Shown here piece after piece: positions 9,859 to 13,748 of a stretch of 64,000 nucleotides of DNA. Each line of letters begins with the position of its first letter. The first letter of the stretch is position 1. The position numbers and the translations under genes were made by a program. Origin of the DNA: Actinomycetes bacterium (lineage in GTDB: Bacteria; Actinomycetota; Acidimicrobiia; Acidimicrobiales; Acidimicrobilacustridaceae); contig JAKOVR010000203.1 of assembly GCA_029782025.1 (NCBI GenBank), forward strand, positions 1 to 64,000, in the 5' to 3' direction. The notes below the pieces were generated by a model, which had not been told where the DNA came from, did no database searches, and saw only the letters and a list, made by a program, of their open reading frames with translations.

Positions 9859-11319
9859 ATGACCGAGCACGACCGACCGCTGCGCTTCGCCGTCGTCGGC
9901 GCCGGGATGGCGGGGCTGCTCAGCGCCATCAAGCTGCGCGAGGCCGGCTGCACCGACGTGACGATCTACGAGAAGGCCGATCGCATCGGTGGCACGTGGC
10001 GGGAGAACACCTACCCGGGCCTGAGCTGCGACGTGCCCTCGCACCTCTACAGCTACTCCTTCGAGCTCAACCCCGACTGGAGTCACCAGTTCTCGCCGGG
10101 GGCCGAGATCCAGGCCTACTTCGAGCACGTCGTCGAGAAGTACGACCTGGCCCCGCTCATCCGGTTCTCGGAGGACGTCACATCGCTGGCCTGGGCCGAC
10201 GGCCGGTGGCACCTCGACACCGCCGCCGGACACCACGACGAGGCCGATGTCGTGATCGCCGCCACGGGGGTGCTGCGCGTCCCCCGCTACCCCGACATCG
10301 AGGGGATCGACACCTTCGCCGGCGCCTGCTTCCACAGCGCCCGGTGGGACCACGCCGTCCCCCTGGCCGGCCGGCGGGTGGGGATCATCGGCACCGGCTC
10401 GACGGCGGTGCAGATCGTGTCGGCCATCGTGGGCGAGGTCGGGCACCTCGACCTCTTCCAGCGCACCCCCCAGTGGGTGCTGCAGCAGCCCAACCCGGCC
10501 TACGACGAGCCAACCCGGGCCGACTACCGGGCCCATCCCGAGAAGCTCGAGGCGCTGCACAAAGGGCTGAGCCAGCTCTTCGCCGAGGGGTTCGCCAACG
10601 CCATCGTGGATGCCGACTCGCCCCAGGTCCAGGGCATCCAGGCCGCATGCCTGGCCAACCTCGAGAACAACGTGAAGGACCCGGAGCTGCGGGAGCGGCT
10701 CCGTCCGACCTACCGGGCGGCCTGCAAGCGGCTCATCGTCTCCCCCGACTTCTACGAGGCGATCCAGCAGCCCAACGCCTCGCTCGTCACCGATCCGATC
10801 GTCGCCGTCGAACCCGGGGGCGTGCGCACGGCCGACGGCACCCTCCACGAGCTCGACGTGCTCGTGCTGGCCACGGGCTTCCGTGCCGACGCCTTCATGC
10901 GGCCCATGCAGATCATCGGCCGGGGCGGGGTCACCCTCGAGACGGCCTGGACGCCGCGGCCCGAGGCCTATCTCTCGATCAGCATCCCGGACTTCCCCAA
11001 CCTGTTCATGCTCAACGGCCCGAACGGCCCGGTCGGCAACTTCTCGCTGATCGAGGTGGCCGAGCTGCAGTTCGGCTACATCCTCCAGCTGGTCGACCAG
11101 CTGCGCTCGGGGGCGTGCCGGGAGATCAGCGCCCGGGCCGACGTGCTCGCCGTCTTCGAAGCCGAGCGGGAGGAGGCGGCGAGGCACACCGTCTGGGTCA
11201 CCGGCTGCCAGAGCTGGTACCTCGACGACCGGGGGATCCCGGCGGTGTGGCCCTTCACCTTCGACCGCTTCCGGGCCGAGATGGCGGCCCCGGACCTCGA
11301 CGCCTACGAACGCGCGTGA
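9859..11319 (+). CDS. flavin-containing Baeyer-Villiger-type monooxygenase
   Basis: The 486-residue protein has an N-terminal FAD site VVGAGMAGL (residues 12-20), GGTWREN, the Baeyer-Villiger fingerprint FxGxxxHxxxW[PD] as FAGACFHSARWD (153-164), and a second Rossmann site GTGSTAVQ for NADPH. Such enzymes insert oxygen into ketones or hydroxylate organic substrates in the cytosol. The ATG follows AGGGGGA by 5 nt. It ends 23 nt before the CrtQ-like gene and could be cotranscribed, but nothing ties its substrate to carotenoids. Confidence 0.87.
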   Translation: MTEHDRPLRFAVVGAGMAGLLSAIKLREAGCTDVTIYEKADRIGGTWRENTYPGLSCDVPSHLYSYSFELNPDWSHQFSPGAEIQAYFEHVVEKYDLAPLIRFSEDVTSLAWADGRWHLDTAAGHHDEADVVIAATGVLRVPRYPDIEGIDTFAGACFHSARWDHAVPLAGRRVGIIGTGSTAVQIVSAIVGEVGHLDLFQRTPQWVLQQPNPAYDEPTRADYRAHPEKLEALHKGLSQLFAEGFANAIVDADSPQVQGIQAACLANLENNVKDPELRERLRPTYRAACKRLIVSPDFYEAIQQPNASLVTDPIVAVEPGGVRTADGTLHELDVLVLATGFRADAFMRPMQIIGRGGVTLETAWTPRPEAYLSISIPDFPNLFMLNGPNGPVGNFSLIEVAELQFGYILQLVDQLRSGACREISARADVLAVFEAEREEAARHTVWVTGCQSWYLDDRGIPAVWPFTFDRFRAEMAAPDLDAYERA

Positions 11320-11330
11320 CGTTCCGATGA

Positions 11331-11342
11331 TTTAGTGCTAAA
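11331..11342. promoter_or_regulatory. AT-rich inverted repeat just upstream of crtQ-like start
   Basis: The 12 bases TTTAG-TG-CTAAA form a perfect 5-bp inverted repeat in an otherwise very GC-rich region, ending directly at the GTG of the CrtQ-like gene. It could be a core promoter element of a leaderless transcript, an operator for the CarH-like protein encoded downstream, or chance. Its position between the monooxygenase stop and the carotenoid genes is the main support. Confidence 0.35.
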
Positions 11343-12452
11343 GTGAGGGCCGTGGACGCCTGGATGTTGATCGTCGGATGGTTGGCCGGATGGGTGCTGC
11401 TGTGGCGCCTGCCCGGGCTCCGTCGGCCCCCGGCGCCGACGGAGGCGGATCTCCCGGCCTACGCGGTGGTGATCCCGGCCCGCGACGAGGCCCACAACCT
11501 CGGCCCGCTGCTCGCGCAGCTCCAGCACCAGACCGTGGCGCCGGCCGAGATCGTGGTGGTCGACGACCACTCCAGCGACGGCACCGCCGACGTGGCCGCC
11601 GCCGCCGGGGCCCGCGTGGTGCCCTCGCGGTCGCTGCCCCCGGGCTGGGTGGGCAAGACCTGGGCCTGCCAACAGGGCGCCGACGCCACCGACGCCCCCG
11701 TGTTGGTGTTCCTCGACGCCGACGTGAGGCTGGCGCCCGACGCCATGGCGGCGGTGGTGTCCGAGCAGGCCCGTCGCGGCGGCCTGCTGTCGGTCGCCCC
11801 CTGGCACACGGTGCGGCGACCCTACGAGTGGTTCTCGCTCGTGTTCGGCATCGTGGCGCTGATGGGGGTGGGCGCGGCCACGCCGGGGGCCCGCCGGGTG
11901 CGGGGCGCCTTTGGTCCCTGCATCGTCCTGCGTCGGCGTGATTACGACGCCTTCGGTGGGCACGCCTCGGTGGCGGGACAGGTGGTGGAGGACCTGGCGC
12001 TGGCCGACCAGGCCACGGCCCACGGGCTGACGGTGTCGGTGCTCGGCGGCCGACCGCTCCTCACCTACCGGATGTACCCCCAGGGGATGCGCTCGCTGCT
12101 CGAGGGCTGGACGAAGAACATCGCCACCGGCGCCCGCCGGTCCGACCCGCTGCGGTCGGTCCTCGCCGCCACCTGGATCGCCGGCGGCATCGTGGCCTCG
12201 TGGCAAGGGCTCACCGGCGGGTGGGTCGGCGCCGTCGTGCTGGCGCTGTGGCTCGTCCAGGTGGCGCGCATGAGCCGCCAGATCGGTTCGTTCCCGGTGT
12301 TCGCGCTGCTGGCCTTCCCCCTGCTGCTGGCCTGGTTCCTGTTCGTGTTCGTGCGGTCGGTCATCCTCACCTCCCTCCGCCACGAGGTGCAGTGGCGGGG
12401 ACGCCACATCCCGGTGACGCGGGGAGCCGTGACCGTGGCGGAGCGGTGCTGA
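11343..12452 (+). CDS. crtQ: CrtQ-like glycosyltransferase family 2 (carotenoid glycosylation)
   Basis: The 369-residue protein has one N-terminal membrane helix, a GT-A domain and about three C-terminal helices. Visible motifs are VVIPARDEAHNLGPLL, VVDDHSSDGTADVA, GWVGKTWAC and FLDADV (metal-binding DxD), plus VVEDLALAD. GW[VT]GK.WAC together with the C-terminal helices is typical of the CrtQ group, which glucosylates a carotenoid acid at the membrane. The CrtO-like acyltransferase follows after 1 nt. The start is GTG 11343; a second in-frame GTG at 11352 is possible. Confidence 0.72.
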   Translation: MRAVDAWMLIVGWLAGWVLLWRLPGLRRPPAPTEADLPAYAVVIPARDEAHNLGPLLAQLQHQTVAPAEIVVVDDHSSDGTADVAAAAGARVVPSRSLPPGWVGKTWACQQGADATDAPVLVFLDADVRLAPDAMAAVVSEQARRGGLLSVAPWHTVRRPYEWFSLVFGIVALMGVGAATPGARRVRGAFGPCIVLRRRDYDAFGGHASVAGQVVEDLALADQATAHGLTVSVLGGRPLLTYRMYPQGMRSLLEGWTKNIATGARRSDPLRSVLAATWIAGGIVASWQGLTGGWVGAVVLALWLVQVARMSRQIGSFPVFALLAFPLLLAWFLFVFVRSVILTSLRHEVQWRGRHIPVTRGAVTVAERC

Positions 12453-12453
12453 C

Positions 12454-12936
12454 ATGGCCCTCGACCCCGGCCCCGCCCTCGTGGCCGACATCGTGGCGTG
12501 GACCGTCCTCGGTCTCGGCACCGGCTACCACCACCACCGGCTCCCGCTGGAGCGCCTCGCCGACGACACCTGGCTGACCACCCTCCGGTCGTGGGAGCGG
12601 GGCGGTGCGATCTACCAGGACCGGTTCCGGATCAAGGCCTGGAAGGACCGCCTGCCCGAGGCCGGCGCCTTCTTCCGTGGCGGGCTGTCCAAGCGGGCCC
12701 TGCCCGGCCGGAGCCGGCCCGCCCTCGAGCGGTTCGCGGCCGAGACCCGCCGGGCCGAACGGGTCCACTGGTCGCTGCTGCTCGCCGGCCCGGCCTTCCT
12801 CCTGTGGAACCCGCCCGACCTCGGGGCGGTGATGGTGGCCTACGCAGTGGTCGCCAACGCGCCGTTCATCGCCATCCAGCGCTACAACCGCGGCCGGATC
12901 CAGGCCATCCTGCGCCGCAAGGTGCTGGCCCGGTGA
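12454..12936 (+). CDS. crtO: CrtO-like glycosyl-carotenoid acyltransferase
   Basis: The 160-residue membrane-associated protein matches the small glycosyl-4,4'-diaponeurosporenoate acyltransferase of Staphylococcus. Shared features are an early GYHHHRLP segment, an RIKAWKDRLPE block, the RAERVHW motif, a hydrophobic helix pair, and the near-invariant VANAPFIAIQRYNRGR. CrtO attaches a fatty acid to the sugar of the glycosylated carotenoid. It lies between the CrtQ-like gene and the CarH-like regulator, overlapping the latter by GTGA. No crtM, crtN or crtP is in the window, so the carotenoid acid would come from elsewhere. Confidence 0.75.
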   Translation: MALDPGPALVADIVAWTVLGLGTGYHHHRLPLERLADDTWLTTLRSWERGGAIYQDRFRIKAWKDRLPEAGAFFRGGLSKRALPGRSRPALERFAAETRRAERVHWSLLLAGPAFLLWNPPDLGAVMVAYAVVANAPFIAIQRYNRGRIQAILRRKVLAR

Positions 12937-13748
12937 GCCCGGCCGACCTGTCGTTGCGCGACGCCGCCGACCTCCTCGGTGTGCACTACATGACCGCGTA
13001 CAAGTACGTGCGCACCGGACAGCTCCCGGCCACCAAGGCCGGGGCCGAGTGGCGGGTCCGCACCGCCGACGTCGAAGCGTTGCGCGCCGCCCCGGCCGTC
13101 CCCCGGGGTCGGGGCGGTCGTCGCGTCGACTACGCCGGTCGGCTCACGGCGAGGCTCATGGCCGGCGACGAGGCCGGGGCCTGGGCCGTGATCGAGATGG
13201 CGCTGTCGGCCGGGCTCGAGCCGGTCCAGGTGTACCTGGAGCTCCTCATCCCGGCCATGCAGGCCGTGGGGGAGGGATGGGCCACGGGCACGGTGACGGT
13301 GGCCGAGGAGCACCGGGCGTCGGTCACGGTGCAGCGTCTGATCGGACGCTTCGGCCCCCGCCTCCGGCGTCGCGGACGGGCGCGGGGCACCATCGTGCTC
13401 GGGGCGCCCGCCTCCGACACCCACAGCCTCCCGGTGGCCCTGATGGCCGACCTCGTCCGCAGCCTCGGCTTCGATGTCGTGGATCTGGGGGCCGACGTCC
13501 CGGCGGTGTCCTTCGCCGAGGCCGCGGCCGAGGCCGATCGCTTGGTGGCCGTCGGCATCGGGGCCTCGACCCCGGGAAACGAGGCCCAGGTCCAGGCGGC
13601 CATCGAGGCGGTCCGGGCGGTGGCGACGGTGCCGGTGCTCGTGGGCGGCGGGGCGGTGGCCGGCGAGGAAGCGGCCCTCGGCCTGGGGGCCGACGCGTTC
13701 GTACCCCCGGGGGCGGCCGGGCTGGCCGTCTTCGACGCGCTGACCTGA
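12933..13748 (+). CDS. B12-binding HTH regulator with CarH photoreceptor signature
   Basis: The 271-residue protein has an N-terminal excisionase-type helix-turn-helix (residues about 4-45, DAADLLGVHYMTAYKYVRTG), then a helical cap domain, then a Rossmann cobalamin-binding domain. The cap has W116-x9-E126-H127 (WATGTVTVAEEH), the arrangement that in CarH packs over adenosylcobalamin. The lower axial ligand is H164 in SDTHSLP, where Pro replaces the usual Gly. CarH-type proteins bind DNA in the dark and release it in light, inducing carotenoid genes. Here the DNA-binding part is HTH_17-like rather than MerR. It is cotranscribed with CrtQ/CrtO-like genes. Confidence 0.8.
   Translation: MSPADLSLRDAADLLGVHYMTAYKYVRTGQLPATKAGAEWRVRTADVEALRAAPAVPRGRGGRRVDYAGRLTARLMAGDEAGAWAVIEMALSAGLEPVQVYLELLIPAMQAVGEGWATGTVTVAEEHRASVTVQRLIGRFGPRLRRRGRARGTIVLGAPASDTHSLPVALMADLVRSLGFDVVDLGADVPAVSFAEAAAEADRLVAVGIGASTPGNEAQVQAAIEAVRAVATVPVLVGGGAVAGEEAALGLGADAFVPPGAAGLAVFDALT

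Follow-up and report, generated by a model that had tools for sequence, protein, structure and literature searches.

The three-gene locus at positions 11343-13748 of a 64-kb window (the whole stretch of DNA analysed, 64,000 nucleotides on a 73.9 kb contig from an uncultured member of the Acidimicrobiales, whose draft genome of 4.63 Mb is 95.7% complete) raises the question of what a putative cobalamin-binding regulator controls when it is encoded together with two enzymes resembling those of staphyloxanthin synthesis. An earlier note on this DNA had read the locus as a light-induced operon for acyl-glycosyl-carotenoids. The three genes are real and share a strand; 1 nt separates the first two, the second overlaps the third by 4 nt (GTGA), and the tight unit described in that note is borne out by both gene coordinates and domain matches. 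The features of the locus are as follows.

11316..11344, + strand: possible promoter, GTGACG - 17 nt - TAAAGT, second hexamer overlapping the palindrome; seen by eye, the consensus promoter scan having reported none
11331..11342, no strand: perfect palindrome TTTAGTGCTAAA, candidate operator of the regulator; about 0.03 expected by chance per 64 kb
11343..12452, + strand: GT2 glycosyltransferase (CrtQ/CruG/HpnB-like), probable true start GTG 11352; Glycos_transf_2, 58.9 bits
12454..12936, + strand: CrtO-family acyltransferase; PF18927, 99.6 bits against a cut-off of 27.3
12933..13748, + strand: helix-turn-helix (HTH) and B12-binding regulator, 271 aa, from domain, alignment and model evidence
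12948..13082, + strand: excisionase-type HTH, residues 6-50; HTH_17, 3.7e-11; TIGR01764, 37.3 bits against a cut-off of 28.8
13140..13346, + strand: B12 cap, a four-helix bundle, residues 70-138, with W116, A117, E126 and H127; PF02607, 1.9e-15
13389..13715, + strand: B12-binding Rossmann domain, residues 153-261, with H164 and P167; PF02310, 2.8e-10, and Thermus CarH alignment

The first gene product has a GT2 fold and matches the CruG (102.6 bits) and HpnB models at approximately 103 bits, far under their cut-offs, while the second belongs to the CrtO family by its PF18927 score. The glycosyltransferase gene called previously stands, although its start probably does not: the homologue in locus L205 begins at the residue matching GTG 11352, 9 nt after its own palindrome, and the start is therefore more probably GTG 11352 than 11343. 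Upstream, a flavin monooxygenase gene (window 9859-11319), of Baeyer-Villiger type by its family matches, stops 23 nt short of where the glycosyltransferase gene is annotated to begin; as the palindrome sits between the two genes, the monooxygenase is probably a separate unit. No riboswitches or tRNAs were found within the window. We rejected the idea that the linkage of this glycosyltransferase-CrtO pair to the regulator is unique to the host genome: it was found in none of the first 44 loci, yet pair and regulator are adjacent or at most about 5 kb apart in four genomes of the same family (G175, G170, G176 and G178), and in G175 the three genes follow a palindrome in identical order.

The regulator combines HTH_17/excise, B12-binding_2 and B12-binding domains. 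In CarH and class I LitR proteins a W-x9-E-H motif contacts the adenosyl group of the cofactor, His177 serves as the lower axial ligand and His132 as the upper ligand of the light state. Alignment with Thermus thermophilus CarH (L229) places W131, E141, H142 and H177 of that protein on W116, E126, H127 and H164, the pocket positions given in the earlier note, whereas His132 is replaced by A117 and G180 by P167, the latter being the proline previously remarked on in the DxHxxG motif. Because these residues are kept in 55-62 of 62 sequences (W116 in 57, E126 in 56, H127 in 59, H164 in all 62 and P167 in 55), their presence is not due to chance; the His132 position holds Ala in 41 of the sequences and His in two. 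The NCBIfam CarH model covers the B12 part only, scoring 49.9 bits against a cut-off of 400. A sequence search alone puts MttC and MetH first, whereas the AlphaFold model (pLDDT 84.7) ranks photocobilin, CtMerR and CarH ahead of methionine synthase, and CarH is the top PDB match of the B12 cap.

Judged by its sequence the regulator is not a CarH, as it lacks the MerR head and has Ala for His132. Domains, alignment and fold matches, with the TIGR01764 HTH model over its cut-off, instead support a branch separate from CarH/LitR in which a CarH-like B12 pocket is carried on an excisionase-type HTH, much as had been suspected. Its named relatives come from Acidimicrobiales or Actinomycetota metagenome-assembled genomes, and within the family it is present in 33 of the 37 genomes. 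A search of the open-access literature returned no paper on this HTH-B12 family or on the palindrome as an operator.

Whether the operon makes acyl-glycosyl-carotenoids, as proposed in the earlier note, depends on the carotenoid backbone, and here the proposal is not supported for the host: as far as the draft goes, the genome shows the lack of backbone genes that the note itself had named as refuting its reading. Six-frame searches of the genome, which depend on the assembly, gave no match to SQS_PSY (PF00494, phytoene/squalene synthase) and no CrtI/CrtN-family desaturase over the cut-off, the best TIGR02734 score being 49.3 bits against 238.1; the best partial desaturase matches inspected were, by eye, other FAD proteins. 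It is conceivable, if rather unlikely, that these carotenoids are made and that the backbone genes are merely absent from the draft. About 4% of the host genome is missing, 21 of the 27 CrtO-bearing genomes of the order have phytoene synthase, and in many genomes of the order the glycosyltransferase-CrtO pair adjoins phytoene synthase and desaturase genes (the desaturase and isomerase clusters being recognised by sequence). However, among the 37 family genomes CrtO occurs in 14 and the synthase in five, all within the 14, which leaves nine CrtO genomes with no synthase, too many for incompleteness alone, and in the host a desaturase over the cut-off is absent as well.

A separate subfamily of the pair in synthase-less genomes was not supported by the trees, which interleave both kinds and place the host pair as sister to that of G175. 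Two histories would fit this pattern: the synthase was lost repeatedly, leaving the pair to serve another or an imported lipid, or the pair has never acted strictly on carotenoids. A CrtQ/CrtO-like pair by itself is no safe sign of carotenoid synthesis. In G176 (C9:48926-49686; L190, L191) a phytoene synthase match is split over two frames, through either gene decay or an assembly error. Given a regulator in 33 and a phytoene synthase in five of the 37 family genomes, carotenoid control is not the common job of the regulator.

What the regulator may control is suggested by the palindrome, which was absent from the earlier note and stops directly ahead of the annotated glycosyltransferase start. 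Regulator loci spanning 979 kb contain 16 exact copies. Nineteen other palindromes with an identical base composition do not occur there at all, and the motif itself is absent from 369 kb around CrtO genes that are not near the regulator. Since inspection of regulator loci is what revealed the motif, counts of its proximity to the regulator do not test it independently, and the cleaner test is the scan of the whole 4.63 Mb host genome, which yielded four exact sites plus one near-site and nothing for the reversed control. All five host sites lie 8-14 nt ahead of a usable start codon, a spacing that again favours GTG 11352, as in L205. Aligned sites widen the motif to ATTTAGYRCTAAAT, so that conservation reaches beyond the core searched for. 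Across the family an exact site is present in 25 of the 37 genomes, mostly one in each, and since the reversed control gave one or two matches in each of eight genomes, such single sites need their context. Taken together, the palindrome looks like the operator of the regulator, for which it is our candidate.

In the host the exact sites precede the operon studied here, a fasciclin lipoprotein gene (C116), an FtsX-type permease operon (C175) and a gene for a secreted protein of no recognised family (C85), and the near-site precedes a small protein gene (C193). Genome G095 has one candidate operator between crtE and the lycopene cyclase gene, and a second between the regulator and a divergent gene of the FMN-dehydrogenase family, which we read as type-2 IPP isomerase. 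The link between regulator and carotenoids drawn in the earlier note is therefore upheld in relatives, by the G095 site and by the pairs beside crt genes, and not in the host. An amine oxidase gene lies behind the palindrome in L050, L063 and L073, and a fasciclin gene in G005. WhiB-like genes are often found near sites, one confirmed by Pfam (L055) and the others by sequence only. In L209 (G179:C18, 858-2473) a second paralogue of the regulator, of HYQ type, is divergent from a rhodopsin gene, with the palindromic core variant TTAGAACTAA between the two; this variant falls outside the exact palindrome pattern. Rhodopsin was not detected in the host genome. The sites inspected in genus g2 and G179 (L277, L280, L281, L270-L272, L278, L279 and L282) precede cobA-hemD, next to which comes a hemB-like gene identified by sequence only, and some lie between cobA-hemD and a WhiB-like gene adjoining photolyase. 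The putative targets would thus mostly form a light-response set, comprising crtE/lycopene cyclase, rhodopsin (with the core variant), WhiB, the photolyase neighbourhood, cobA-hemD-hemB and amine oxidase. In two genera fasciclin lipoprotein genes follow either the palindrome or just its core (L267, G000:C116, 7608-8702; L056, 9679-10288); among fasciclin proteins, the algal AstaP binds carotenoids (PMC10147662).

FtsX-type ABC permeases are connected with the pair as well, through shared palindromes in three genera. In G170 a single palindrome is followed, on a single strand, by genes for a permease, a second permease, an ABC ATPase, the regulator, the glycosyltransferase and CrtO; in G175 the palindrome separates the glycosyltransferase-CrtO-regulator genes from a divergent FtsX permease (26% identity to that of the host); and in the host the permeases follow a palindrome of their own on a different contig. 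This arrangement, together with the lack of detected CrtM/CrtN backbone genes, sets the host pair apart from staphyloxanthin CrtQ/CrtO, which it otherwise resembles, as it does CruG, in the adjacent genes for a GT2 enzyme and a CrtO-family acyltransferase. It is reasonable to suppose that the product may be exported, and an exported glycolipid, perhaps one other than a home-made carotenoid, is plausible. The host permease cluster (L268, G000:C175, 7702-13400) begins, after its palindrome, with a pair of FtsX-type permease genes and also includes what looks like an ABC ATPase gene, together with genes resembling those for radical-SAM enzymes and glycosyltransferases; it may be another operon for modifying a lipid or a peptide.

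As to the signal, putative control by light is our best reading. The regulator shares with CarH and class I LitR the B12 cap and Rossmann fold, the W, E and H residues and the lower His ligand, and carotenoid genes are also among its putative targets in relatives. It differs from CarH, apart from its HTH and the two substitutions described above, in that its candidate operator is a palindrome, whereas that of CarH consists of 11-bp direct repeats, nAnnTnnACAn. The nearest PDB folds, CtMerR and the photocobilins SasPcob and AbDPcob, likewise lack His at the His132 position (PMC11796333), although CtMerR has a MerR head and the photocobilins have a biliverdin-binding domain and no HTH. Among the light-type motifs of SignatureFinder (GxxW, EH, GxxH and GxxxP) three of four are present, the GxxH site reading S161-D-T-H here, with Gly in 54 of the 62 sequences. 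The HTH-CBD proteins of the SignatureFinder network, which we liken to the regulator by their description, likewise fuse a light-type cobalamin domain to an HTH, that network giving domain fusions only, neither operator nor regulon (PMC11796333).

Alternatively, the regulator could sense cobalamin itself, through its supply or redox state, acting as a repressor that responds to B12 or tetrapyrroles and has tetrapyrrole synthesis in its regulon. We regard this as unlikely, even though the site scanned in genus g2 stands ahead of cobA-hemD-hemB, the switch residue His132 is not kept, and almost every genome of the family, with or without pigments, carries the regulator. The adenosyl-contact pattern W-x9-EH is retained, and the targets found elsewhere are carotenoid genes, rhodopsin and the photolyase neighbourhood. 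While TtCarH carrying H132A is mostly tetrameric after light (PMC10442372), CtMerR is light-responsive with Arg at this position (PMC11796333), and A117 is therefore compatible with photochemistry. It is quite improbable that the palindrome belongs to a different regulator of the same genes, for example a WhiB-linked one, since, although WhiB genes often neighbour sites and G152 and G155 have a site and no detected regulator, these two assemblies are incomplete (78% and 92%), the palindrome core recurs at the promoter of the regulator itself in relatives (L052, L056, L061, L063, L204 and L209), and exact sites go with regulators whose recognition helix is of HYM type (13 of 48 loci) and not of HYQ type (0 of 13), in small numbers. 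No consistent alternative palindrome was found upstream of the HYQ-type homologues.

On balance we lean towards the explanation that 11343-13748 is an autoregulated operon for lipid glycosylation and acylation, under an AdoCbl-binding, probably light-responsive regulator of the separate branch that would act via the palindrome. The regulator would be an adenosylcobalamin-binding transcription factor that binds ATTTAGYRCTAAAT over or beside target promoters; by analogy with CarH, its AdoCbl form would repress in the dark and light would release it. The glycosyltransferase and the CrtO-like enzyme would then glycosylate and acylate a lipid, which a co-regulated FtsX-type ABC exporter may bring to the surface. 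As the host genome shows no backbone genes, this lipid need not be a carotenoid. More speculatively, the regulator may represent a His132-less B12 photoreceptor branch, core to one Acidimicrobiales family, that uses a palindromic operator for light responses in mostly carotenoid-free bacteria, and which here would govern the glycosyl/acyl modification and export of a surface lipid, either not a home-made carotenoid or a carotenoid acquired from neighbours.

If true, the family would provide a test case for whether CarH-type photochemistry can switch DNA binding with no His132 ligand, and its palindromic operator, being short, could be of use in green-light tools. It would also mean that an order which is abundant and for the most part uncultured has a B12-type light regulator of its own, whose DNA target is defined and whose target genes can be read off: pigments, rhodopsin, the photolyase neighbourhood and tetrapyrroles.
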